A stretch of 32,141 bases of DNA, from positions 1 through 32,141 of the forward strand of contig CAJAYO010000893.1 in the NCBI GenBank assembly GCA_903948415.1, given 5' to 3'. The stretch is from an uncultured Opitutia bacterium. Lineage in GTDB: Bacteria > Verrucomicrobiota > Verrucomicrobiia > Opitutales > Opitutaceae. The notes below the pieces were generated by a model. The model was not told the DNA's origin. It worked only from the letters and a program-made list of their open reading frames with translations, and did not search any database. Shown here in pieces: positions 5,248 to 29,550 of this stretch. Each line of letters opens with the position of its first letter. Positions within the stretch are counted from its first letter, which is position 1. The position numbers were made by a program, and so were the translations under genes.

Positions 5248-5302
5248 GCCGTCACTCAACCTTCACCCTGCCGTCACCGGTTCGCCACAAACGTCACAAT
5301 CA
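5248..5302 (+). promoter_or_regulatory. Pho-box-like tandem 11-bp direct repeats in the divergent intergenic region
   Basis: 11-bp frames: GCCGTCACTCA / ACCTTCACCCT / GCCGTCACCGG / TTCGCCACAAA, then CGTCACAATCA slightly out of register. CCTGCCGTCAC repeats exactly at 5245 and 5267 (22 bp apart). Confidence 0.5.
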
Positions 5303-7657: not shown

Positions 7658-8233
7658 ATGCGCTGCCTCCCCTCCGTTTTGCTCGCCACGGTCTGCTGCA
7701 GTCCGATACCGGCCCAGACCGTTGCCCACACACCCCGCGGTCCCGCCGCCGCGCCCGAAGCCCAGGCGTGGGCCCGCTACACCACACAGTCGAAAAACGC
7801 CCTCGCCGCGCTCGACGCATCCTCGGCCGCGTCGGCGCTCCCGCCGGCTCCGGCCGGCGTCACCGACCTCGCGTTCGCCGAATTTTTCGGTCCCATCGGC
7901 GATCGCGGCCTCGAGTATTCGGAAAAACTCCGCGGACTCGCCGGCCGCCGCGTCCGTCTCGTGGGCTACATGGTCCGCGAACAAGAACGTTCCCCCGGCC
8001 TCTTCCGTTTCGCCGGGTGGCCGATTGCCGTCGAGACGCTGGGTCTTTGTTCTGTCGACGATACCCCGCCCAGCACCGCCTACGTGATCGTCCCCGACCC
8101 GGGCCAAAAACTCCCGCCCTGGCGGCCCGGCCGCCTGCTCCTGACCGGCACCCTCGAGGTCGGCGCCCGCGCGGAAGCCGACGGCCGCAACTCGTTTGTC
8201 CGCCTCGTGCTCGACCCCCAACCCGCGCCCTGA
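7658..8233 (+). CDS. Secreted hypothetical protein, 191 aa
   Basis: ATG at 7658 gives signal-like N-terminus MRCLPSVLLATVCCSPIPAQ. C-terminal half (LAGRRVRLVGYMVREQERSPGLFRFAGWPIAVETLGLCSVDDTPPSTAYVIVPDP) resembles small secreted OB-like/DUF3299-type proteins. Confidence 0.7.
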   Translation: MRCLPSVLLATVCCSPIPAQTVAHTPRGPAAAPEAQAWARYTTQSKNALAALDASSAASALPPAPAGVTDLAFAEFFGPIGDRGLEYSEKLRGLAGRRVRLVGYMVREQERSPGLFRFAGWPIAVETLGLCSVDDTPPSTAYVIVPDPGQKLPPWRPGRLLLTGTLEVGARAEADGRNSFVRLVLDPQPAP

Positions 8234-8298
8234 CCCGCCCAACTCGACCCGTCCGCCTTCTTCCACCCACCGCCCTGCCTCGCCTTCCATTTTTTCTC

Positions 8299-10302
8299 AT
8301 GCACCACACTCCCCGCTTCCTTCTGCTCGCCGCCACGCTCGTGGCGGCCTCGTTCTCTGCGGTCTCCGCCGCACCGATCGTCACGCGACTCACCCCGCCG
8401 AGCGGTCTGTTCTACTTCCAGGACCCGAATCCTCCCTACATCTCGCGCTTCGTGCCCGGCCAGCGCTTCGACCTGCAGGCCACGATCTCGCCCGACGCCA
8501 CCCAGAATATCGCCGGCGTAAAATTTTACGTCAATAACACCGAGGTCCCCGGCACGATCACGCTCGTGCCTGCCACGGTCGCCGGCCTCCCCGCCAATAC
8601 TCTTGTGGCGACCCTCCGCAACTACAGCCTCGCGTCCCCCGGTGTCCATCGTCTCACCGTCAGCGCCACCCAGCTTCCCAACGGCCAATCCGTCCTCGCC
8701 ACCGGAAATTTCGAGATCGTCCACCTGGGCGCCGCGCTCGGCAACCCCAAGGCCAAGAACATCATCTTCATGATCGGTGACGGCATGGGCATCGCCCACC
8801 GCACCGCCGCACGTTTCATGCTGAATGGGGTCAGCCAGGGTAAAGCCCTCGCCCCGCTTGCCATGGACACCTTTCCCGTCACCGGCCTGCTCCAGACCTG
8901 CTCGCTCAACTCCATCGTCACCGACTCCGCCCCCGGCGCCTCGTGCTACTCAACGGGCAACAAGAACAACAACAACCAGGAAGGCGTGTTCCCCGACGAC
9001 ACGCTCGACGCGTTCGACAATCCGCGCACTGAATACATGGGCGAGTTTCTCGCCCGCACCGGCGGCAAATCCCTCGGCATCGTCACCACCTCCGACGTCT
9101 TCGACGCCACGCCCGCCGCCTTCGCCATCCACACCCAGAACCGCGGTGCCGGCACCGGCATCTGCGACCAGTACCTCGATGAAGCTGTGGTGAAGGCCAA
9201 CCTCACCGTCCTCCTCGGCGGCGGCCGCAAATGGTTCCTCCCCGCCACCACCGCCGGCTCTGCCCGCAACAACGCCACCGACTACGTGCTCCCCACCGAA
9301 CTCGCTACCGGCTGGAGCGTCGTCGCCGGCGCCCTCGATCCCAACCGCGACCTCCTCGCCGATTTCCAGAAAGCCGGCTTCGCCTACACCGCCAACGCCA
9401 CGCAGCTCAAGGCGCTTCCCTCCTCCACGGAAAAGCTCCTCGGTCTCTATGCGCTCTCGAACATGAACGTCGCCTCCGACAAAATCGACGGTCGTCGCGG
9501 CAACCCCGCCGTCGTTAACGAATTCGGTTTCCCCGATCAACCGATGCTCGATGAAATGACCGACGCGGCCCTCGCCGTGCTCTCGAAAAACCCCGCCGGC
9601 TTCGTCCTCATGGTCGAGGCCGCCTCCATCGACAAACAGGCCCACAACATGGATACCGACCGCTGGATCCTCGAGACCATCGAGTTCGACCGTGCCATCG
9701 GCCGCGCCAAAGCCTTCGCCGCCGCGAACCCCGACACGCTCGTCCTCGTCACCGCCGACCACGAATGCGCTGGCGTCAACATCATCGGCGCCTCCACCGT
9801 CACCCAGGCCAGCCTCAACGCCCGCGCGAATTCCGGCGGCGGTGCCGCCCAACTCCGCGACCCCGCCCCCGGCTCCGCGACACCCGTCGTCGGCGTCTAC
9901 GAACTCGCCGGCTTCCCCGTGTATGGGATCCAGCCCGACGGCTACCCCGCCACCACCAATCCCGATCGGAAAATGCTCATCGGCTACGCCGGCGGCGCCG
10001 ACCGCTACGAAGACTGGCAGAGCAATCCCCGCCCCATCCGCGACACGCAGCAACCCTTCAATGCCACTGCGCCCCTCAACTCCCATCCGAACAATCCCCT
10101 CGAGCGCAAAAACGCCGGCAATTTCCTGGTCACCGGACAGGTAAGCGGGACCAGCGCCGTCCACACCGCCTCCGATATTCCGATCTCGGCCTACGGCCGC
10201 GGCGCCGCCCACTTCACCGGCACGATGGACAACACCGATGTCTTTTTCCGCGCCATGAAAGCCATCCTCGTCGGCGCCGACACCACGGTGGCCGAGCGTT
10301 AA
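8299..10302 (+). CDS. Secreted alkaline phosphatase (PhoA-type) with an N-terminal Ig-like extension
   Basis: ATG at 8299, signal peptide MHHTPRFLLLAATLVAASFSAVSAA. AKNIIFMIGDGMGIAHRTAARF (metal-binding D), IVTDSAPGASCYSTG (nucleophile Ser), TPAAFAIHTQNR, VLMVEAASIDKQAHNMD, VLVTADHECAG. Confidence 0.92.
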   Translation: MHHTPRFLLLAATLVAASFSAVSAAPIVTRLTPPSGLFYFQDPNPPYISRFVPGQRFDLQATISPDATQNIAGVKFYVNNTEVPGTITLVPATVAGLPANTLVATLRNYSLASPGVHRLTVSATQLPNGQSVLATGNFEIVHLGAALGNPKAKNIIFMIGDGMGIAHRTAARFMLNGVSQGKALAPLAMDTFPVTGLLQTCSLNSIVTDSAPGASCYSTGNKNNNNQEGVFPDDTLDAFDNPRTEYMGEFLARTGGKSLGIVTTSDVFDATPAAFAIHTQNRGAGTGICDQYLDEAVVKANLTVLLGGGRKWFLPATTAGSARNNATDYVLPTELATGWSVVAGALDPNRDLLADFQKAGFAYTANATQLKALPSSTEKLLGLYALSNMNVASDKIDGRRGNPAVVNEFGFPDQPMLDEMTDAALAVLSKNPAGFVLMVEAASIDKQAHNMDTDRWILETIEFDRAIGRAKAFAAANPDTLVLVTADHECAGVNIIGASTVTQASLNARANSGGGAAQLRDPAPGSATPVVGVYELAGFPVYGIQPDGYPATTNPDRKMLIGYAGGADRYEDWQSNPRPIRDTQQPFNATAPLNSHPNNPLERKNAGNFLVTGQVSGTSAVHTASDIPISAYGRGAAHFTGTMDNTDVFFRAMKAILVGADTTVAER

Positions 10303-17183: not shown

Positions 17184-17216
17184 ATCGTCACCCCGCCGCC
17201 ACCCGATCGCCACACG
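17184..17216 (+). promoter_or_regulatory. Pho-box-like tandem 11-bp direct repeats upstream of the glycolipid operon
   Basis: Three in-register 11-bp units: ATCGTCACCCC / GCCGCCACCCG / ATCGCCACACG; ends about 75 bp before the GTG start at 17290. Confidence 0.45.
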
Positions 17217-17289: not shown

Positions 17290-18453
17290 GTGAAACTCGC
17301 CCTCGTCACCGAAACGTTCCCGCCGGAAATCAATGGCGTGGCGATGACGTTTGGCGTCATCGCCCGCGAACTCGGTCGTCGCGGCCACGCGGTCACCGTC
17401 TATCGCCCTCGCCGGCCGGGCCCGCTGCCGGCTTCCACCCCCGCCGATTTCACGGAGGTCGCGTTGCCCGGTCTGCCCGTCCCCGGTTACCCGCTGCTGC
17501 GCTTCGGCCTTCCCGCCGGCTCCGCCCTGCGCCGGCGCTGGCGCGCCGACCGCCCGGACCTCGTCCACGTCGCCACCGAGGGTCCGCTCGGCGCCTCCGC
17601 CGTGAGCGCCGCCCGCTCGCTCGGCCTCCCGGTCACGTCCAGTTTCCACACGAACTTCCACGCTTACACGCAACACTACGGCTACGCCCCCCTCCACCGG
17701 CTTGTGCTCTGGTGGCTCCGCCGGGTCCACAACCGCACCGCCCGCACCTTCGCGCCCACCACCCAACTCTGCGCCGAGCTCGAGGCACTCGGCTTCCGCG
17801 ACCTCGCCCTCCTCTCCCGCGGCGTCGACACCTGGCAGTTTCACCCCGCCCGCCGCTCCGGCGACCTTCGCCTGAGCTGGAAAGCGACGCCCGAAAACCC
17901 CGTCGTCATCCACGCCGGCCGCATGGCCGCGGAGAAAAACTACCCGCTCCTCTTCGAATGCTTCGCCGCCATGCGCGCGGCCAACCCCCGCTGCCGTTTC
18001 GTTTTGGTCGGCGACGGCCCGCTGCGCCCGCGCCTCCAACGCGACCACCCGGAGTGCACCTTCACCGGCTTCATCTCCCGGGACGAACTCGCGCGGCACT
18101 ACGCGTCCGCCGACATCTATATCCACGCCAGCCTCACGGAGACGTTTGGCAACGTCCTCACCGAGGCCCTCGCCAGCGGCCTGGCCGTCGCCGGCTTCGA
18201 CTACGCCGCCGCCCGCCAGTTCATCCAACACGGCTACAACGGTCTCGCCGTGCCGTCCGACCGCCCCGACCTGCTCCTCGCCGTCGCCACCCGGCTCGCG
18301 ACCGACAGCGCTCTGCGCGCCCACCTGCGGGCCTCCGCCCGCGCGGCGGTCGAGCCGCAGTCCTGGGAGACCGTGATCGCCCATTTCGAATCCGACCTCG
18401 CCCACGTCATCGCCCGCTCGCGCTCCACCGCTCTCGAACCCGCCGTCGTATGA
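17290..18453 (+). CDS. Glycosyltransferase family 4 (SqdX/PimB/MgtA-like lipid glycosyltransferase)
   Basis: MKLALVTETFPPEINGVAMTFGVIARELGRRGHAVTVYRP, SFHTNFHAYTQHYGYAPL, VIHAGRMAAEKNYPLLFECFAAM, FVLVGDGPLRPRL, YIHASLTETFGNVLTEALASGLAVAGFDYAAARQFI. Confidence 0.92.
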   Translation: MKLALVTETFPPEINGVAMTFGVIARELGRRGHAVTVYRPRRPGPLPASTPADFTEVALPGLPVPGYPLLRFGLPAGSALRRRWRADRPDLVHVATEGPLGASAVSAARSLGLPVTSSFHTNFHAYTQHYGYAPLHRLVLWWLRRVHNRTARTFAPTTQLCAELEALGFRDLALLSRGVDTWQFHPARRSGDLRLSWKATPENPVVIHAGRMAAEKNYPLLFECFAAMRAANPRCRFVLVGDGPLRPRLQRDHPECTFTGFISRDELARHYASADIYIHASLTETFGNVLTEALASGLAVAGFDYAAARQFIQHGYNGLAVPSDRPDLLLAVATRLATDSALRAHLRASARAAVEPQSWETVIAHFESDLAHVIARSRSTALEPAVV

Positions 18454-19640
18454 AAAAACCCCGTGTCCTCATTCTCACCGCCGGGTTTGGCGAAGGCCAC
18501 AACGCCGCCGCCCGTGCCCTGGCCGCTGCATGCGATGCCCTCCATGGCCCCGGCACCGCCCGCCTCGTCGATGTCTTCGCGCTCGCCTCGCCCCGCCTCA
18601 ACGCCCTTACCCGCCGCGTCTATCTCGGCCTGATCAACCGCACGCCGCGCCTCTGGAGTTCCGTCTACGCGTGGGTCGACCGCGCCGCGATCTTCCCCCG
18701 CGCGCTGCTTTTCTTCCGCCGCGAAAGCCGCCTCCTCGGTCGCATCATCGCCGCGGAACAGCCCGCCGTTCTCTGCAGCACCTACTTCATCTACGCCTAC
18801 CTGCTCGAGGGTCTCGCGCGCGAGGGCCGCCCACTCCCGCCGCATTTCAATATCGTCACCGACTCCATCAGCATCAACTCCCTCTGGTGGCGGGCCGCCT
18901 GCACGGGCTGGTTCCTGCCGAATCCGGAATCGGCCGAGGTGCTCGGCCGGGCCGGCATCGCGACCGAGCGTCTCCATGTCGCCGGGTTCCCCGTCAACCC
19001 GTTTTTCCGCGCCCACGCCGCCGCATTCTCGCCGCCCGCCCTCGCCGGCGGCGCCACGCCGCGTGTGCTTTACATCATCAACTCCGGCACCCGCCTCGCA
19101 CTCGAAACCGCCACCCAGTTGCTCGCCGAACCCGGCTGGTCCGTCACCTGCGCGGTCGGCCGCGACGAGCCCCTCCGCGCGCGCCTGGAAAAACTCGCCG
19201 CCACCCGGACCCATCCGGCCACGATCCTCGGCTGGACCGACCAGATCCCCCGCCTGCTTCTGACGCACCACGCCGTCGTGAGCAAAGCCGGCGGCGCCAC
19301 CACCCAGGAAGCCATCGCCGCGCGCTGTCCGATGATCGTCAACCAAGTCGTCCCCGGCCAGGAAGAGGGCAACTACGAACTCCTCCGCCGCCACCGCGTC
19401 GGGGCCCTGGCCGAGACCCCGGATGCCATCGTCCGGGAACTCCGCCGTGCGTTCGCCGACCAAGGCCGCGTCTGGAGCGAGTGGCGCAGCACGCTCACCC
19501 ATCTGGCCCGGCCCGACGCGGCCCACGCGATCGCGGCGCACCTGCTCGCGCACTCGGCTCCCACCGACGAACCGGGCCCCGTTCCCTTGCCGCACGCCCC
19601 GGCCTTCCCCGCGCCCCCCCTCCCTGCGACGACCGCATGA
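18450..19640 (+). CDS. MGDG synthase/UgtP-like (GT28) glycosyltransferase
   Basis: MKKPRVLILTAGFGEGHNAAARAL (GxGHxxAA), LNALTRRVYLGLINRTPRLWSSVY, GFPVNPFF, ILGWTDQIPRLLLTHHAVVSKAGGATTQEAIAARCPMIVNQVVPGQEEGNYELL. Start overlaps the upstream stop (ATGA). Confidence 0.9.
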   Translation: MKKPRVLILTAGFGEGHNAAARALAAACDALHGPGTARLVDVFALASPRLNALTRRVYLGLINRTPRLWSSVYAWVDRAAIFPRALLFFRRESRLLGRIIAAEQPAVLCSTYFIYAYLLEGLAREGRPLPPHFNIVTDSISINSLWWRAACTGWFLPNPESAEVLGRAGIATERLHVAGFPVNPFFRAHAAAFSPPALAGGATPRVLYIINSGTRLALETATQLLAEPGWSVTCAVGRDEPLRARLEKLAATRTHPATILGWTDQIPRLLLTHHAVVSKAGGATTQEAIAARCPMIVNQVVPGQEEGNYELLRRHRVGALAETPDAIVRELRRAFADQGRVWSEWRSTLTHLARPDAAHAIAAHLLAHSAPTDEPGPVPLPHAPAFPAPPLPATTA

Positions 19641-20581
19641 AAACGTGCTTCATCCTCAACCCCACCTCGGGCCGCAACCGCCGCCGCCCCGCTTTGGCCG
19701 GGCTCCTGCGCGACTTCATTTCATCGCGTTCCCTCGACGCCGTTGTCGCGACCACCGATGGTCCCGGCCATGCCACGCACCTCGCCCGCGACGCCGCGCT
19801 GGCCGGCTGCACGACCGTCGTCGCCGTTGGCGGCGACGGCACGATGAACGAAGTCGCCCAGGCCCTCCTCCACACTCCGGCCGCCCTCGCGCTCGTCCCC
19901 TGCGGCTCGGGCAACGGCCTCGCGCTGCATCTCGGCGTGCCGACGGCCCTGCTGCCCGCCCTCAACCTCGTCGCCCGCATCGGCGGACGTGTTGCCCAAA
20001 TCGATACGGGGAGCGCCAACGGCCATCCCTTCTTCAACGCCATGGGCCTCGGGCTCGATGCCGACGTGAGCCGCCGCTTCAACACCCTCACCTCCCGCGG
20101 ACTTCCCGCGTACGCCCGCACCGCGTTCGCCGCCTTTCGCGATCTGCGCACGGAACGCGTCTTCATTTCGACCTCCGACCGGCGGGAGACCCTCGACATC
20201 GTCCTCGTGGCCGTGGCGAACTCCGACCAATACGGCAACAACGCCCGCATCGCGCCTGGCGCCCGCACGGACGACGGCGCGCTCGATCTGGTCGCCGTCC
20301 GTACCGTCGGATTTCTCGGTGCGGCGGCCCTCGCCGCCCGGCTCTTCTGCGGCCGGTTCGACCGGAGCGCCCATGTTTGCCGCCTTCAGAGCCCGAGCTT
20401 TGTCATCGAACGCGCCGCTCCCGGCCTCATCCACACCGACGGCGAAACCCACGCCACCGGCGCCACGGTCGGGATCCTCGTCCACCCGCGCAGCCTCCGC
20501 ATCGTCGTGCCCGTCACCTCCTCCGCGGTGGCGGTCGTCGACGCGCTCTCCCCCGCCGGCTTCGCCCTCCAGCTGCCATGA
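19637..20581 (+). CDS. Diacylglycerol kinase family lipid kinase
   Basis: MKTCFILNPTSGRNRRRPALAG, TVVAVGGDGTMNEVAQALLHTPAALALVPCGSGNGLALHLGVP, FNAMGLGLDADV, HTDGETH. ATGA overlap with the upstream gene. Confidence 0.92.
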   Translation: MKTCFILNPTSGRNRRRPALAGLLRDFISSRSLDAVVATTDGPGHATHLARDAALAGCTTVVAVGGDGTMNEVAQALLHTPAALALVPCGSGNGLALHLGVPTALLPALNLVARIGGRVAQIDTGSANGHPFFNAMGLGLDADVSRRFNTLTSRGLPAYARTAFAAFRDLRTERVFISTSDRRETLDIVLVAVANSDQYGNNARIAPGARTDDGALDLVAVRTVGFLGAAALAARLFCGRFDRSAHVCRLQSPSFVIERAAPGLIHTDGETHATGATVGILVHPRSLRIVVPVTSSAVAVVDALSPAGFALQLP

Positions 20582-21405
20582 AAAAACTCCTGCGCGTCCG
20601 GACCGTGATTCTCTCCGACGTCCACCTCGGCACCGCCGAATCCAAAGCCGCCGAAGTGAACCACTTCCTCCGGCACACGCGCTGCGAAAAACTCATCCTG
20701 AACGGAGACATCATCGACGGCTGGCAGCTCACCCGCTCCGGCCAATGGACCAAGGCCCACACCCGCTTCATCCGCATCGTCCTCAAGAAACTCGAGAAGC
20801 GCGACACCGAGGTCATCTATCTTCGCGGCAACCACGACGACATCCTCGCCTCGTTCCTCCCGCTCGATTTTGAAAATCTCCGCATCGTCGAAGACTACAT
20901 TCACGAATCCCCGCGCGGCCGTTACCTGGTTCTTCACGGCGACGTGTTCGATACGATCACGAAAAATTTCGTCTGGCTCGCTCACCTCGGCGACTGGGGC
21001 TACCAGTTTCTCCTCAAGCTCAACCGCGCCTACAACGCCTGGCGGGCCTGGCGCGGACAGGAATATTGGTCGCTCAGCAAAGCCATCAAGGCGCGCGTCA
21101 AACAGGCGGTCAGCCACGTCGGCGATTTCGAGGCGCACATCGCCGAACTCGCCCGCGCCCGCGGCTGCACCGGCGTGATGTGCGGCCATATCCACACCGC
21201 TGCCGACAAAATGATGGGCGACATCCACTACCTCAACAGCGGCGACTGGGTCGAGTCGCTCAGCGCCGTCGTCGAGCATTTCGACGGCCGTTTTGAACTC
21301 GTCCACTTCACCGACTTCGTCCGCGAGTTCCCGCTGGACCTCGCGGACGGCGGCTCCGACGACAGCCCCGCCGAGCCCGCTCTCGTCGACGCGGGCAGCG
21401 AATAG
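20578..21405 (+). CDS. Calcineurin-like metallophosphoesterase of the PlcP/LpxH-like family
   Basis: VILSDVHLGT, LILNGDIIDGW, IYLRGNHDDILASF, RYLVLHGDVFDTI, LAHLGDWGYQFLLKLNRAYN, YWSLSKAIKARVKQAV, GVMCGHIHTA, YLNSGDWVESLSAVVEHFDGRFEL. ATGA overlap with the upstream gene. Confidence 0.9.
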   Translation: MKKLLRVRTVILSDVHLGTAESKAAEVNHFLRHTRCEKLILNGDIIDGWQLTRSGQWTKAHTRFIRIVLKKLEKRDTEVIYLRGNHDDILASFLPLDFENLRIVEDYIHESPRGRYLVLHGDVFDTITKNFVWLAHLGDWGYQFLLKLNRAYNAWRAWRGQEYWSLSKAIKARVKQAVSHVGDFEAHIAELARARGCTGVMCGHIHTAADKMMGDIHYLNSGDWVESLSAVVEHFDGRFELVHFTDFVREFPLDLADGGSDDSPAEPALVDAGSE

Positions 21406-21512: not shown

Positions 21513-22355
21513 CTAGCCCCGCCCACCCCCGCCGCCCAGATCGCGGCTCAGAAGATGAATCCAGTCTTCGTGCAGGAATTCGGCGGACCCGCCGGTGAAA
21601 AACGGCTCAAGTTCCCGGCACAGCCAGTCCCGCGTCTCCGTCACCGGTTCCTGTTTTCGGTCGATCGCGCCGATGAGCGAACTGTGCGTCAGCAGATTGT
21701 CCACATACTCGTCGAGCGTGTGCCGGACCCGGTGCGTCAGGCTCTCGCGCGCCACGTCGTGAAAGCCGAACCCCACCGCCTTTTCCTCCGTCAGCACCTC
21801 GTCGTTGCGCTGCGCCTTCGGGTAGCGGGCCCGAAACACGCCGCGTTTCCACGTTTCAAACTCGGCGTGGTCCGCCAGCTTGCCCGTCGAGCCGACCTTG
21901 TACAAAACGAGCCATCCTCCACCCCGCAGTACCCGCGCGGACTCGGCCAGAAATTTGTCCTGGTCGAACCAGTGATAGGCCGAGCACACCGTCAGCAGAT
22001 CGAAACTGCCCCGCGCAAACGGCAGCGCCTCCGCATAACCGCAGCGATAGTCGATGGCCGGATGCCGCTCCGCCTGCGCCAGCATGAACCGCGACGAATC
22101 AAGCCCCACCACCGACTTCGCCAGCGGCAGCAGCGCCACGGTCGAATGCCCGGTGCCGCACCCCACGTCCAACGCCCGCTCCACCGGCAGCGCCTCGCCC
22201 AGAAGGGTCTTCACCCATCCGAGCACGCGCCCCTGGCTCTGGGGCCGGTTGCCGGCGTAGCGCGCCGCCGCCGCTTGCGAGTTGAAATGGTTGACGACGC
22301 TGTGTCCGGCCGGTCCTTCCGGTCCGGGCTGCACCCAAGTAGTCGCAGGATTCAT
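21513..22355 (-). CDS. Class I SAM-dependent methyltransferase
   Basis: ERALDVGCGTGHSTVALLPLAKSVVGLDSSRFMLAQAE...YAEALPFARGSFDLLTVCSAYHWFDQDKFLAESARVLRGGGWLVLY. ATG at 22355 preferred over the track start 22475. Confidence 0.9.
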   Translation of the reverse strand: MNPATTWVQPGPEGPAGHSVVNHFNSQAAAARYAGNRPQSQGRVLGWVKTLLGEALPVERALDVGCGTGHSTVALLPLAKSVVGLDSSRFMLAQAERHPAIDYRCGYAEALPFARGSFDLLTVCSAYHWFDQDKFLAESARVLRGGGWLVLYKVGSTGKLADHAEFETWKRGVFRARYPKAQRNDEVLTEEKAVGFGFHDVARESLTHRVRHTLDEYVDNLLTHSSLIGAIDRKQEPVTETRDWLCRELEPFFTGGSAEFLHEDWIHLLSRDLGGGGGRG

Positions 22356-22566
22356 CCCGCACCTTTTCCGCGCCGCCGGATCCGCGCAACCGCCCTGCGT
22401 CACGATCACGCAACATCGCCGGCGACGCCCCATCCCGTCCTCGTTCTCACCCTCCGGGCCCTCGCGCGACGGCAAAAATCACAACGGCGTTTCGGACTCG
22501 AAACGTTTCGGTGACACCGCGGGTTTGCCTTTGCCAACGGAAGAACGAGCGCTCGCTGCTATCTCG

Positions 22567-23685
22567 ATGCCTGCGCCCACACTTTCCCCTGCTCTTTCGT
22601 TGCTGGCGGCCTTTTCCCGCTTTTCGCCCGCCCAGCCGCTCCACCATTTTTTTCGCGCGGCGGGCTACAAGCTCCGGCCGCCCCGCCCGTTGCCGCATAC
22701 GCCCGCGATCACCCCCGCCCAAACCGAAATCCTCGCCCGCGGCGAAGCCGCCCTTCACCAGCGCGCCACCGTCCTCTGCGAGCGGCGGTTCGGCTCGACG
22801 CCCACAATTGTACTGGGTGGCTTCGTGCCCGACTCGACCGAACAAGTTTTTCTGTTGCGCGGCTATCTCCTCCGGAGGGGCAGCGTCTATTATCTGAACT
22901 ACCCGCGCGGCGGGTTTTCGCCCGCGCTGATTTGCGCCCAGCTCGACGATCTCGTCACCGAGCTGAACACGCTCCACGGCCAGCAGCCCGTCGTCTTCGG
23001 CGTCAGCTTCGGCGCCGGCCTCGTATTGGAATGGCTCAGACGCTCCCGTGCCGCCCATCGCTCTCCCTCCATCGGCGGCGTGGTCCTCGTCAGTCCCGTC
23101 GCGTGCGCCGCCGACATCGTCGTCCCCGGCGAAGCCAAGGCGTCCACCTTGATCGGTCGCGCCCTCAAACCGTACCTCGATAGCGGTGCAACTGTCGGTC
23201 CGGAAGTGATCCACCGTTCCCGCACCATTTTCGCCAAGATTTTTGAAGCCGGCGCGCAGAACCGCGAAACGATCCGATCTCTCCTCACCGCCGGTGAACT
23301 GCTCCAACTCCGGGACCGCGTCCTCGCAGCGATCAAGGACCTCGAACCCTTGGGCGCCTGCGAACGCGTCGACGCCCTGCGCGCCATGCCGCCGCTTTCC
23401 CCGTGGGACACCGCCGGACGCCTCCCCCTTGCGACCGCACCCGCCCTCGTCCTCTACGCCGAGAAAGAAAGCGCCGTGATCGCGGTCGGCTCGCCGACCC
23501 GCACCGCCTTCGATTCGGCCCTCCAGGCCATTTTCCCCCACGGGGAACTCAAGGTCGTCTCCGGCGCGCCCGGCGGCAACGCCGTGCAACACGCGTCGCT
23601 TATTTTCCATTACTTTCAATTTCTGCCGCCGGTGGCGGCCTTCTACCGCAGTCTGAAAGCCCGGAAACTTCCCCTCGCCGCATGA
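22567..23685 (+). CDS. Alpha/beta hydrolase
   Basis: TIVLGGFVPDSTEQVFLLRGYLLRRGSVYYLNYPRGGFS, nucleophile elbow VVFGVSFGAGLVLEWL (GxSxG), VVLVSPVACA, C-terminal H in QHASLIFHYFQF. Confidence 0.8.
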   Translation: MPAPTLSPALSLLAAFSRFSPAQPLHHFFRAAGYKLRPPRPLPHTPAITPAQTEILARGEAALHQRATVLCERRFGSTPTIVLGGFVPDSTEQVFLLRGYLLRRGSVYYLNYPRGGFSPALICAQLDDLVTELNTLHGQQPVVFGVSFGAGLVLEWLRRSRAAHRSPSIGGVVLVSPVACAADIVVPGEAKASTLIGRALKPYLDSGATVGPEVIHRSRTIFAKIFEAGAQNRETIRSLLTAGELLQLRDRVLAAIKDLEPLGACERVDALRAMPPLSPWDTAGRLPLATAPALVLYAEKESAVIAVGSPTRTAFDSALQAIFPHGELKVVSGAPGGNAVQHASLIFHYFQFLPPVAAFYRSLKARKLPLAA

Positions 23686-25256
23686 ACCTCAAGGACCTCT
23701 ACACGCTCGGCGCTTCGGTCCTGGCGGCGGCGGCCGCTCGGCGCCTTCGACAGGTTACCGCGGCGCCCGGCCACCAACACCAGATCTTTTCCCGCCTGAC
23801 CCGCCGTCTCGCCGCCACCTCCCATTGGGCCGAGGCGGGCGTCACCGCGACCATGAACTACCCCCGTTTCCAGGAGCGCATTGCCCCGCACAGCTACGAG
23901 CGCCTCGCTCCCGCCGTCGAGCGCATGAAACGCGGCGAAGCCGACGTCCTGTGGCCGGGACGTTGCGCGCATTTTGCGGTCTCGTCCGGCACGACCGCCG
24001 GACGCACGAAGTATCTGCCGATTACATCGGCGATGCTCGATCACTTTCGCCAGGCCGGACTCGACTCCCTGCTCTACTACGCCGCCCGCACCGGTAACCC
24101 GTCGGTCTTCCGCGGCCGCCACTTGTTTCTCGGGGGCTCGTCGGCCCTTTCCCCGCTGCCCGAGATGGCGCCGCACAAGGCCTACGCGGGAGACCTCAGC
24201 GGGATCACCGCGCTGAATCTGCCCGCGTGGGTGGAAAAACACCTCTACGAACCGGGCGCGCAAATCGCCCAGATGACCGACTGGCCCGCCAAACTCGCCG
24301 CCATCGTCCGGCGGACGAGTACCGTCAACATCACCATGCTCGCCGGCATCCCGAGTTGGGTGCTGATCCTCGCCGCCGCTCTCCGCCATCACGCCGCCGC
24401 CCACGACCGCTCGGCCCTCCACCTGCAGGAAATCTGGCCGAACCTCGAATGCTTCGTCCACGGAGGCGTTCCGATCGACCCCTTTCTCGGCGAACTCCGG
24501 GCCGCCCTCGGGCCGACGGTGAACTTCCACGAGGTCTATCCCGCCTCGGAGGGTTTCATCGCGGCTCAGGCCGACGAGCCGGGCCTCGGACTCCGGCTCA
24601 TGGCCAACGCCGGCATCTTCTACGAGTTCATCCCTCTCGCTGACTACGACGAAACGCGCCTCGAACACCTCGGCCGCAAAGCCGTGCCTCTCGCCGGCGT
24701 GCAAGTCGGCGTCGACTACGCGCTCGTGATGACGACCCCCGCCGGTCTCGCGCGCTATGTGATCGGCGACATCGTGCGCTTCACCTCGACGGAGCCGCCG
24801 CGCCTCCTCTACGTCGGGCGAACGAAACTGCAGCTCAGTGCCTTCGGGGAGCATGTTATCGAAAAAGAGGTCACCGATGCCTTGCTTGCCGTCACGCAAC
24901 GCCACGCCTGCACCATCGCCAACTTCCATGTTGCCCCCATCTTCGTCAACGCCGCCACGGGCCAACACCGCGGACAACACGAGTGGTGGATCGAACTCCG
25001 CTCCGGCACGACCCCGGCGCCGATGCCCGCGCGCCTAGCCACCGACCTCGACACCGAGTTGCAGCGCCTCAACGACGACTACGAAGCCAAGCGACTGGGC
25101 GGGGGGCTCGCCCCGCCGTCCGTGCGCCTCGTCGCCCCCGGCACGTTCGAGCACTGGCAGCGCCGTCAGGGCAAATGGGGCGGTCAGCACAAAATGCCCC
25201 GGTGCCGCAGCGACCGCACAATCGCCGACGAACTCGCGCTCGCAGTTGCTTCCTAG
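23682..25256 (+). CDS. GH3-family (auxin-responsive GH3-like) acyl-adenylating enzyme
   Basis: AHFAVSSGTTAGRTKYLPIT (P-loop-like), NVTMLAGIPSWV-type segment, NFHEVYPASEGFIAAQ, YALVMTTPAGLARYVIGDIVRF, LLYVGRTKLQLSAFGEHVIEKEV. ATGA overlap with the hydrolase. Confidence 0.92.
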   Translation: MNLKDLYTLGASVLAAAAARRLRQVTAAPGHQHQIFSRLTRRLAATSHWAEAGVTATMNYPRFQERIAPHSYERLAPAVERMKRGEADVLWPGRCAHFAVSSGTTAGRTKYLPITSAMLDHFRQAGLDSLLYYAARTGNPSVFRGRHLFLGGSSALSPLPEMAPHKAYAGDLSGITALNLPAWVEKHLYEPGAQIAQMTDWPAKLAAIVRRTSTVNITMLAGIPSWVLILAAALRHHAAAHDRSALHLQEIWPNLECFVHGGVPIDPFLGELRAALGPTVNFHEVYPASEGFIAAQADEPGLGLRLMANAGIFYEFIPLADYDETRLEHLGRKAVPLAGVQVGVDYALVMTTPAGLARYVIGDIVRFTSTEPPRLLYVGRTKLQLSAFGEHVIEKEVTDALLAVTQRHACTIANFHVAPIFVNAATGQHRGQHEWWIELRSGTTPAPMPARLATDLDTELQRLNDDYEAKRLGGGLAPPSVRLVAPGTFEHWQRRQGKWGGQHKMPRCRSDRTIADELALAVAS

Positions 25257-26345: not shown

Positions 26346-26389
26346 ATTGTCACGCCTTCGTCACGCAAACGACTCCGGTTCGCCATGGA
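26346..26389 (+). promoter_or_regulatory. Pho-box-like tandem 11-bp direct repeats upstream of the second TonB-dependent receptor
   Basis: ATTGTCACGCC / TTCGTCACGCA / AACGACTCCGG / TTCGCCATGGA in strict 11-bp register; a TAAGAT -10-like hexamer follows at 26397-26402. Confidence 0.5.
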
Positions 26390-26439: not shown

Positions 26440-29400
26440 ATGAAACCCACCTCTCCTCCCACCACCGCCTCTCTCGTTCGCCCGCGCGCGCTGCAATTTT
26501 TTGCCCTTGCCGCCGGTTTGGCCTCCGTCAGTTCAGCTGCAGCGGCCGAGGTTTCCACGGCACCCAAAAGCGCTCCCGCCAAGTCCGACGTCGTCGCCCT
26601 CCAAAACTTCGTCGTCACCGGCTCGAACATTCTACGGCTCGACCTGGAGAAGGTCGTGCCGATCACCATCCTCGACCAAGACGCGATGGCCGCGCGCCAG
26701 GCCCTCCTGCCCGTCGACATGCTGACCTCCCTCCCGTCGGTCGTGAATCTCCCGGAAAACGAAACCCGCCTGGGCTCCTCCGGTGCGCGCGGCGACAACG
26801 CCAATATCAACCTCCGCAATCTCGGCGCCACCGGCACCCTCATTCTCGTCAACGGTCGCCGCATGGCCATCAACCCGATGACCGCCGGTCTCTCGCAGGC
26901 CGTGAACGTCAACCAGCTTCCGACCCAGGGCATCGAGCGTATCGAGGTCCTTCGCGATGGTGCCTCCGCGATCTACGGCTCCGACGCCGTCGGCGGCGTC
27001 ATCAACTACGTCCTCAAGCGCTCGTTCCAGGGCACCGAGATCATGCTCCGCCAGGGCCTCACCGAGGGGGGCGGCGGCCAGAGCACGCAGGCGACCCTTA
27101 CTTTCGGCACCAACTTCGCCGGCGGTCAGGGGCGGATTTTCGGCACCGTCGAGGCCCTTTACAAGGAGGCGATTTTCCTTCGCGACCGCGATTTCAGCTC
27201 CACCTCAAATCTCACCGCCAAGGCCCCCGCCCCGTTCAATGCCCTCGGCGGTCCCTTCGACGCCCGCACCGCGCGCGGTCGTTACCCGATTTTCCGCATC
27301 GGCACCGCCACCGCGAGCAACTGGCTTCGTCCCGTCGCCGGCACGCCGACGCTCACGACCGTCGCGCCCACGTTTGCCGCCAATCCGGAATTCTACCTCG
27401 ACCTCAACCAATTCGGCATGGCCTCCCCGCGCATGGCCCGCGCCAATTCGTTCTTCTCCGCCGAGTATGACGTCACCAAAACCGTCACGGCCTTCGCCGA
27501 TTTCTCCTACTACCAAGCCGACTCCACGATGGTCCGCCAACCCCTCGCGCTCAACGCCCCCACCAGCGACAAGCTCGCCGTCATGTCGTTGGACAACCCC
27601 TACAACCCCTACGGCTCCCGTTTCTACAGCGCCACCGGTGCACCCAATGCCGACGGCACGCCGCGCCTCACCGGCGCCCCGCGCGCCGTCAGCCTCGCCT
27701 CGGTGACGCTGCCTGATCTCGGTGTTGAAAAAATCTCCACCAAGGCCGACGTCGTGCGCGCCGCCGCCGGCCTCAAGGGCCGACTCGGCGACACCTGGAG
27801 TTGGGAATCCTCCGCTTTCTACAACCGCGTGAAGGGCGAGGACCTCGCGTTCCCCGACGTCCGCGAAAGCCTGCTCGCCCAGACCCTCGCACGCACCGAC
27901 GCCAACGCCTACAACCCCTTCGGTTACACCTTCAAGGTGCTCAACGGCGCCGTCGTCGCCGATCGCCCCTACACCAATCCCGCCGCCGTCGTAGACTCGT
28001 TTTCCTCGATTTACGCGCGCCACGCCACCAGCTCCATCGCCAGCGGCGACCTGCGCGTGACCGGCCGCTTGCTCCGCTGGTGGGGCGGCGACCTCATGGG
28101 TTCCTTCGGCACCGAATATCGCCAAGACAAGCTCGCAGACCGCCGCCCGCCCTTCAGCGGCGAGAACCCCGCCGGCTCCGGCCTCGAGACGACCGACAAC
28201 GACTACCTCCTCCATCCGCCGCGCCCCGACGTAATCGGCGATCGCCATATCACCAGCTTCTACGCCGAGGTCGTCGTGCCCCTCGTCAGCACCGAGCGCC
28301 GCGTGCCGTTCATCAACACCCTCGAGCTCACCGCGTCCGGGCGGCACGAAAATTACAGCGATTTCGGCCAAACCACGAAACCCAAAGTCGGCCTCAACTG
28401 GCGCCCGCTTTCCTGGCTCATGCTGCGCGGCTCCCGCAACGAGGGCTTCATGGCCCCGAGTCTCGCCGCCCTCTTCACCAGCCCGCGCTGGTCGATCTCC
28501 GCCGGCGCCGGGGACATCGACACCTATCGCAATCCCTTCACCAACGAGGGCGCCTACGTCCAGCGCACGTACTTCGGCGGTAACCCGGATCTCAAAGCCT
28601 CCGAGTCCAAGGGCCAGACCTACGGCGTCGTGATCGATGTCCCCGGCATCAAGGGCCTGAGCCTCACCGCCGACCAGTGGCGCATCGAGCGCACCAACCT
28701 CCTCGGCCAACGCAGCACCGCGCAGATTCGCGCGAGCGACGTCGCCCTTCTGCAAGCTTACACCAAGGCCCAACTCGCCGCCGCCCGCCCCCTCTCCGCC
28801 ATCGACCTCGGCAGCGGCACCGCGAATTACAAGGGCGATCCCGACGTCGTGCGCTACGCCGTCACCCCCGAGGATGTCGCCGCGTTCGGGCCCTACAACA
28901 CCGCCAACCCCAACAACCAACAGGCGGTCGCCGGCAAGATTTTCTCCGTCAACCAGCCGTTCATCAACCTCGCCACCAGCGACCACGAGGGCCTCGATCT
29001 CGGCCTGCGCTACGTCTTCCCCAAGCTCCCCTTCGGCACCGTCGTCCTCAATTCCGAATGGGCCTGCCTCGTGAAATCGCGCTCCGTGACGCGCCCAGCC
29101 AACCAGGCCGCGACCGAAAGCAACGACCTCAACGTCAACGGCGCCTCCCGTTGGCGCGGCACCTCGAACCTCACCTGGCGGCGCGGCGCGTGGACCACCC
29201 ACCTCGGCGCCTACTACGTCGGACCGTCGCAGGACTCCGGCGCGACGACGACTGCGGCCATCTACGATTCGCTCGGGCAACCCGCCTATATTGCCAAGCA
29301 TTTCACCGGCGGTGCCTTCGTTTACCGCTACATCACCGAATCGACCATCACCTACAACCTTTCGGTCGGCTATCGCTTCGGCCGCACCGACACGGCGTGG

Positions 29401-29550
29401 CTCCGCAACACCCGCGTGAGCCTTGGCCTCGTCAATCTCACCGACAAGGCCCCGCCCATCGGCTCCGGCGGTTTCGGCTACAGCCCCGGCGTCAGCCAGA
29501 ATCTCCTCTCCGGCCGCACCTGGTCGCTCGAACTGACGAAAGCGTTTTGA
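26440..29550 (+). CDS. TonB-dependent receptor
   Basis: Signal-like N-terminus from ATG 26440; plug NFVVTGSNILRLDLEKVVPITILDQDAMAARQALLPVDMLTSLPSV...NINLRNLGATGTLILVNGRRM...IERIEVLRDGASAIYGSDAVGGVINYVLKRSF; C-terminal TWSLELTKAF. Confidence 0.94.
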   Translation: MKPTSPPTTASLVRPRALQFFALAAGLASVSSAAAAEVSTAPKSAPAKSDVVALQNFVVTGSNILRLDLEKVVPITILDQDAMAARQALLPVDMLTSLPSVVNLPENETRLGSSGARGDNANINLRNLGATGTLILVNGRRMAINPMTAGLSQAVNVNQLPTQGIERIEVLRDGASAIYGSDAVGGVINYVLKRSFQGTEIMLRQGLTEGGGGQSTQATLTFGTNFAGGQGRIFGTVEALYKEAIFLRDRDFSSTSNLTAKAPAPFNALGGPFDARTARGRYPIFRIGTATASNWLRPVAGTPTLTTVAPTFAANPEFYLDLNQFGMASPRMARANSFFSAEYDVTKTVTAFADFSYYQADSTMVRQPLALNAPTSDKLAVMSLDNPYNPYGSRFYSATGAPNADGTPRLTGAPRAVSLASVTLPDLGVEKISTKADVVRAAAGLKGRLGDTWSWESSAFYNRVKGEDLAFPDVRESLLAQTLARTDANAYNPFGYTFKVLNGAVVADRPYTNPAAVVDSFSSIYARHATSSIASGDLRVTGRLLRWWGGDLMGSFGTEYRQDKLADRRPPFSGENPAGSGLETTDNDYLLHPPRPDVIGDRHITSFYAEVVVPLVSTERRVPFINTLELTASGRHENYSDFGQTTKPKVGLNWRPLSWLMLRGSRNEGFMAPSLAALFTSPRWSISAGAGDIDTYRNPFTNEGAYVQRTYFGGNPDLKASESKGQTYGVVIDVPGIKGLSLTADQWRIERTNLLGQRSTAQIRASDVALLQAYTKAQLAAARPLSAIDLGSGTANYKGDPDVVRYAVTPEDVAAFGPYNTANPNNQQAVAGKIFSVNQPFINLATSDHEGLDLGLRYVFPKLPFGTVVLNSEWACLVKSRSVTRPANQAATESNDLNVNGASRWRGTSNLTWRRGAWTTHLGAYYVGPSQDSGATTTAAIYDSLGQPAYIAKHFTGGAFVYRYITESTITYNLSVGYRFGRTDTAWLRNTRVSLGLVNLTDKAPPIGSGGFGYSPGVSQNLLSGRTWSLELTKAF

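Follow-up and report, generated by a model that had tools for sequence, protein, structure and literature searches.

The stretch of DNA analysed here (the window; 32,141 nucleotides) is contig C893 of a 6.7-Mb draft genome, 95% complete, of an uncultured bacterium of the Opitutaceae (Verrucomicrobiota). The region 17290–21405 contains four genes on the forward strand, encoding a GT4 glycosyltransferase, a GT28 glycosyltransferase of the MGD1/UgtP type, a lipid kinase of the YegS/DgkB type, and a PlcP-type metallophosphoesterase, in this order. A Pho-box-like operator is located upstream (Table 1). Together they are a candidate operon for phosphate-controlled lipid remodelling. The three gene junctions, at 18450, 19637, and 20578, are 4-bp ATGA overlaps, and all of them were read in the sequence. 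An earlier description of this DNA made from the letters only (the sequence-only reading) had reported these four same-strand genes with the same coordinates and junctions, and they are present as claimed. Its family assignments also hold by Pfam: Glyco_transf_4/Glycos_transf_1, MGDG_synth, DAGK_cat plus YegS_C, and Metallophos, respectively. The GTG start of the first gene is common to five congeners and locus L034. The identical order with all three 4-bp overlaps recurs in nine loci, the window included, which indicates that the arrangement is not a product of chance.

Table 1. Features of the putative lipid-remodelling operon in the window (DAG, diacylglycerol).
Feature	Coordinates	Strand	Evidence and prediction
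Pho-box-like operator, three 7-mers, 11-bp period	17185..17213	+	Conserved footprint, genome pattern search, porin-promoter matrix
GT4, Agt2-type, GTG start	17290..18453	+	Pfam, Agt2 identity, tree, donor motifs; predicted DAG glucuronosyl- or glucosyltransferase
GT28, MGD1/UgtP type	18450..19640	+	PF06925, NCBIfam, PDB profile search, predicted fold; predicted DAG hexosyltransferase
YegS/BmrU/DgkB-type soluble lipid kinase	19637..20581	+	PF00781 + PF19279, TIGR00147, PDB relatives, motifs; predicted DAG kinase
PlcP-type metallophosphoesterase (P0004)	20578..21405	+	Identity to PlcPs, low LpxH score; predicted phospholipase C releasing DAG

The last protein had been called PlcP/LpxH-like, and comparison with PlcP and LpxH places it on the side of PlcP. 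It is 47.5% identical to PA3219 of Pseudomonas aeruginosa and 42.4% identical to PlcP of Sinorhizobium meliloti. PA3219 was picked as a reference by synteny: it directly precedes Agt1, beside an adenylate cyclase gene (plcP-agt1-cyaB). The S. meliloti reference, which adjoins the quorum-sensing genes sinI-sinR, is also presumed to be PlcP by synteny. Identities to PlcP-type proteins span 42–52%. Because published PlcPs share 46–47% identity with one another (PMC8528852), the window protein falls inside the range seen among family members. The metal-binding and family blocks SDxHLG, GDxxDGW, GNHD, HGD, GHIH, and GDWVES are invariant in the PlcP alignment, the window protein included, and its YWSLS and GDWVES blocks are common to characterised PlcPs. 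In the PlcP tree, the LpxH branch has a length of 10 and other branches are also long; the deep branching order was left unused, and the assignment is based on identity and model scores.

If the phosphoesterase was LpxH-type instead, the operon would serve lipid A or envelope synthesis. Its relatives are annotated as UDP-2,3-diacylglucosamine diphosphatase in databases, the nearest solved structures are those of LpxH, to which it is remotely similar, and a Kdo transferase is encoded 9 kb from the operon. However, its identity to Escherichia coli LpxH is 23%, over about half of LpxH only. The LpxH equivalog model, which has a cut-off of 134 bits, gives it 36 bits, and no other protein of the genome reaches this model. 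An LpxI gene is present on contig C567 (143 bits, over the cut-off), and lipid A synthesis can thus do without the window phosphoesterase. With the Pho operator in front of the operon as well, the LpxH function is hardly credible, and LpxH identity was rejected. At the level of sequence, the PlcP type is strongly supported, and phospholipase C activity is predicted.

Outside Verrucomicrobiota, the closest PlcP-like protein (51.7%) is found in a plasmid record of Parabacteroides distasonis (L063, 4977–6898), where its gene overlaps an unrelated glycosyltransferase gene. This gene pair may be a Bacteroidota counterpart. More distant PlcP-like genes in Alphaproteobacteria (L068, 5774–6871; L069, 4765–5910) are coupled to genes annotated as ceramide glucosyltransferase.

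The first protein (P0001), formerly described as GT4, can now be specified as Agt2-type GT4 by identity and phylogeny. It is 46.9% identical over 388 columns to PA0842 (Agt2) of P. aeruginosa and 33% identical to Agt1. In a plasmid collection, it matches best the P. aeruginosa gene adjoining plcH-plcR, which is again PA0842. In the GT4 tree, it is placed with Agt2 and apart from the Agt1-like proteins, and the support of this split is moderate, not full (81/90). The translation contains the donor motifs GRMAAEKN and TETFG, and those of GTcp (PMC8231724) are close to them. Agt2 expressed in E. coli generates glucuronosyl-DAG (PMC8528852). An enzyme of the UDP-glucose dehydrogenase family is encoded in the genome of the window, so UDP-glucuronate is feasible. 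Either a glucuronosyl- or a glucosyltransferase acting on DAG is predicted.

The second glycosyltransferase had been considered a GT28 similar to UgtP and monogalactosyldiacylglycerol (MGDG) synthase, and Pfam, structure profiles, and the predicted fold agree. PF06925 (MGDG_synth) is matched with 46 bits (cut-off 25). Among the NCBIfam models, diglucosyl-DAG synthase fits best with 133 bits, under its equivalog cut-off of 500; at such a distance from the cut-off, the family is claimed here and the product is not. A profile search of PDB with 18 GT28 sequences matched only two proteins, processive DAG beta-glucosyltransferase (UgtP-type) and plant MGD1. The predicted fold, with a predicted local distance difference test score of 87.5, matched MGD1 at 2e-17 and 1.6e-15 and the next enzyme at 2.6e-10; MGD1 is ahead of the first unrelated enzyme by about five orders of magnitude. 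The identity to MGD1 is 19%, with the donor-site motifs GGxT..E / PGQEEGN in common. The nearest named record contains the same GT28 at 92% identity. Based on sequence and modelled fold, the enzyme is predicted to transfer a hexose to DAG.

The third protein contains DAGK_cat (PF00781) and YegS_C (PF19279), and scores 129 bits with TIGR00147 (cut-off 118.65). Its relatives in PDB are DgkB, BmrU, and YegS, and the motifs GGDGTMNEV, GSGNGLA, and DGE are present. It is probably a DAG kinase, which would work in the direction from DAG to phosphatidate. Alternatively, the acceptor of the pathway could be a sphingoid lipid such as ceramide, and the kinase a ceramide or sphingosine kinase. Sphingosine kinases are seen in the kinase family at low similarity, and the more distant PlcP-like genes described above are next to genes annotated as ceramide glucosyltransferase. 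Caulobacter produces glycosphingolipids under phosphate limitation, which is a lead only. However, the product of PlcP is DAG and the GT28 is specifically MGD1/UgtP-like; judged by these two enzymes, a sphingoid pathway is quite unlikely.

Of 38 genomes compared, 26 have PlcP together with an Agt2-type GT4 (E at most 1e-60), and the other 12 have neither. The PlcP set and the GT4 set are identical, with the caution that these genomes are related, incomplete drafts and do not represent 38 independent trials. The two genes co-occur even where they are not adjacent, for example in G016, G018, G020, G021, and G027, and their co-inheritance is therefore not mere linkage. Strong GT28 orthologues are found in 15 genomes, each with PlcP, and only alongside GT4 and PlcP. 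The 80 named loci are almost exclusively from Opitutaceae, and in 53 of them the complete set of four is present in the order of the window operon. Another 15, among them that of the cultured Geminisphaera colitermitum TAV2 (L167), have GT4-GT28-PlcP and no kinase that could be recognised, and the other 12 show part of the gene set only, mostly because the match is near a contig end. The variants are GT4-GT28-PlcP, GT4-kinase-PlcP, and kinase-PlcP. In one genome (G013), the operon is naturally split into GT4-GT28 and kinase-PlcP, which are about 1 Mb apart (L035, L109); the second half has a GT4 gene as well (GT4-kinase-PlcP). As judged from gene content, GT4 and PlcP are the core, reaching the order level, and the presence of GT28 and of the kinase varies.

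The operator consists of the repeat units TCGTCAC-CCCG-CCGCCAC-CCGA-TCGCCAC, about 77–105 bp before the first start codon. The alignment of congener promoters shows a conserved block of three 7-mers with an 11-bp period. A degenerate pattern of the operator has only three matches in the 6.7-Mb genome, and the reversed control pattern has none. The first match is the site of the operon itself. The second match is ~55 bp before a Porin_O_P gene, which is followed by a gene for a PstS-type binding protein. The third (C919:9714) has no recognisable phosphate gene behind it and is probably a chance match. Since the degenerate pattern came from the operon itself, an independent test was performed with a matrix of porin promoters. 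The phosphate-porin promoters of relatives contain the same three-unit repeat, and 11 of these sites, with no operon site included, constitute the Pho-box matrix.

The window site scores 21.6 bits with this matrix. With a threshold of 14 bits or more, a site is found upstream of the first gene (GT4) in 65 of 74 operon promoters from named genomes, always on the forward strand and never on the reverse strand. The 200 bp upstream of GT28, kinase, and PlcP reach at least 14 bits in 1/77, 0/60, and 1/73 cases, respectively (2/210 together). Column-permuted matrices detect at most two promoters, and at most one is detected among shuffled promoters. The split operon of G013 has a site on each half, with 21.5 and 20.1 bits, the top two against 3,296 background tiles. 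The best PhoB match (C281:447–1118), a PhoU, and Pst permeases are encoded on one contig of the window's genome, and in several genomes a porin gene is no more than a few kb away from the operon. A 9-of-14 match scan of the window promoter found no classical Pho box (CTGTCAT-N4-CTGTCAT). The operator is a diverged form, apparent only after the relatives were aligned and the porin-promoter matrix was then built. These comparisons point to a Pho-type operator common to phosphate-uptake promoters, with PhoB as its probable binder. It could be argued that the operon makes glycolipids constitutively and carries PlcP by happenstance, with no tie to phosphate. This is very unlikely, as the operator is shared with phosphate-porin promoters in those 65 operons and in both halves of the split operon. 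In Opitutaceae, PlcP seems to occur regularly and in connection with Pho control.

Related repeats are seen at other places. Lone plcP genes of other genera (L046, L047, and L053) have a different repeat, of the type TTGTTAC-N4-CAGTTAC, at about −113 to −120, which is possibly a variant Pho box. In the window, Pho-type repeats CCGTCACTCAACCTTCACCCTGCCGTCACCGGTTCGCCAC at 5249–5300 are upstream of a phytase-like esterase gene (PF13449, 5405–7324), and their first three units score 15.0 bits. An alkaline phosphatase gene (PF00245, E 5e-76; 7768–10302) adjoins it, and thus the window contains several phosphate-scavenging genes. The four-unit Pho-type repeat TTGTCACGCCTTCGTCACGCAAACGACTCCGGTTCGCCAT at 26347–26386 is ~55 bp before the likely ATG (26440) of a TonB-dependent receptor gene (26440–29550). 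This site is also present in G007 (L036:5634).

The locus is best interpreted as a Pho-controlled lipid-remodelling operon of the PlcP-Agt type for phosphate starvation, to which a second DAG glycosyltransferase and a lipid kinase have been added; the probability of this reading is roughly 0.78. As far as sequence goes, the identities of the genes, the structure and conservation of the operon, the co-inheritance of GT4 with PlcP, and the presence of the operator in phosphate-porin promoters too are established, and the substrates and sugars are those that the relatives of the enzymes suggest. At low phosphate, PhoB, whose gene accompanies the pst-phoU cluster, would in its phosphorylated form bind to 17185–17213 and switch on one transcript. 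PlcP would then cleave membrane phospholipids to DAG by removing the head group with its phosphate. Both glycosyltransferases would act on this DAG, each by the addition of a sugar. The most likely products are acidic glucuronosyl-DAG from the Agt2-type GT4, in place of phosphatidylglycerol (PG), and neutral hexosyl-DAG from the GT28, in place of phosphatidylethanolamine (PE). Surplus DAG would be rephosphorylated to phosphatidate by the kinase, which would limit the build-up of DAG and make the switch reversible.

It can be tentatively speculated, at somewhat less than even odds, that in Opitutaceae one Pho-switched transcript replaces both phospholipid charge classes (PG by means of GT4, PE by means of GT28) and that the DAG kinase in the operon reverses the change. 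If true, the operon would be a compact unit of lipid remodelling, complete in itself and working in both directions. The sequence-only reading had proposed a complete cycle on one transcript. PlcP, two glycosyltransferases, and a phosphate-type operator are indeed there, while the use of DAG by the kinase is an assumption.

The same reading had also listed mono- and diglycosyl-DAG as products, which is one of two options. In such a serial pathway, GT4 (or GT28) would make monoglycosyl-DAG and the other enzyme would extend it to diglycosyl-DAG. UgtP-type GT28 enzymes are processive in Firmicutes, the best NCBIfam match of the GT28 is a diglucosyl-DAG synthase, and its strong orthologues accompany GT4 and PlcP without exception. 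However, the glucuronosyl-DAG made by the closest characterised relative of GT4 (PMC8528852) would be a poor fit for a UgtP-type acceptor. Besides, GT28 is missing in genomes that keep PlcP and GT4, so GT4 works without it. The serial pathway is thus rather unlikely, if still to be taken seriously. Given the glucuronosyl-DAG of the Agt2-type relative, the probability of two head groups made in parallel is no lower than that of a serial mono-to-di conversion. Parallel acidic and neutral products would fit the Agt2 kinship better, and the data leave the choice undecided.

Several points weigh against the interpretation as a phosphate-controlled remodelling operon. In some genera (L048–L052), PlcP and GT4 are retained, but no operator of this form can be recognised. 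The genomes behind the operator evidence are related, which makes this evidence less than fully independent. The family of the kinase also holds phosphatidylglycerol- and sphingosine-type kinases. Finally, the GT28 is well under the equivalog cut-offs of known diglucosyl-DAG synthases, so that its donor and acceptor are not fixed.

Most of what is known about lipid remodelling at low phosphate comes from Proteobacteria. The PlcP-Agt operons available for comparison are PA3219-PA3218 of P. aeruginosa with the unlinked Agt2 gene PA0842, plcP-agt of Methylosinus, and those of SAR11 (PMC8528852, PMC9239053, PMC4796936). A PlcP-type phosphoesterase, a GT4, Pho-box-like control, and a predicted DAG intermediate are common to them and the window operon. 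In contrast to them, the window operon begins with GT4 and ends with PlcP, its GT4 is Agt2-like and not Agt1-like, a GT28 and a lipid kinase are located between the two, and the host belongs to Opitutaceae. The plcP neighbourhood types 3 and 5 likewise combine PlcP with additional glycosyltransferases, but these are of the GT21/Pgt type and from Proteobacteria, whereas the extra enzyme here is a GT28 (PMC4796936). The window GT28 shares family, fold, and donor-site motifs with MGD1/UgtP. It differs from them in being in a Pho operon of a Gram-negative bacterium, and it is known here from sequence and predicted fold. The kinase shares both domains and the catalytic motifs with DgkB/BmrU/YegS, and differs by its operon link to PlcP. 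The phosphate islands of HIMB59, from marine Alphaproteobacteria, combine pst and phoBR with genes for a diacylglycerol kinase, 'LpxH' (the label as published), and a glycosyltransferase of the RfaG type, and the authors did not interpret these genes as lipid remodelling (PMC10734472).

The gene set had been described earlier as richer than a plcP-agt pair. The larger set is confirmed, but it is less new than was supposed. PlcP with more than one glycosyltransferase, as well as PlcP in one marine verrucomicrobium, has been published (PMC4796936), and a DagK of Pseudomonas putida is counted among PHO-dependent lipid-remodelling proteins (PMC5082522). PlcP is reported to be absent from verrucomicrobial methanotrophs (PMC9239053). 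In the open-access literature searched, neither this operon nor lipid remodelling in Opitutaceae nor the Pho operator of the family was found described; subscription papers were outside the search. Many Opitutaceae genomes come from lakes, and the host of the window is itself of a lake type. The kinase on the same transcript is a possible answer to how cells handle the DAG released by PlcP and how they revert. With the operator as a motif, the Pho regulon of Opitutaceae can be searched for directly.

Downstream of the operon, at 22282–25256, the gene for a hydrolase-like protein without any Pfam match overlaps that for a GH3-family protein. This pair is kept only within the genus.

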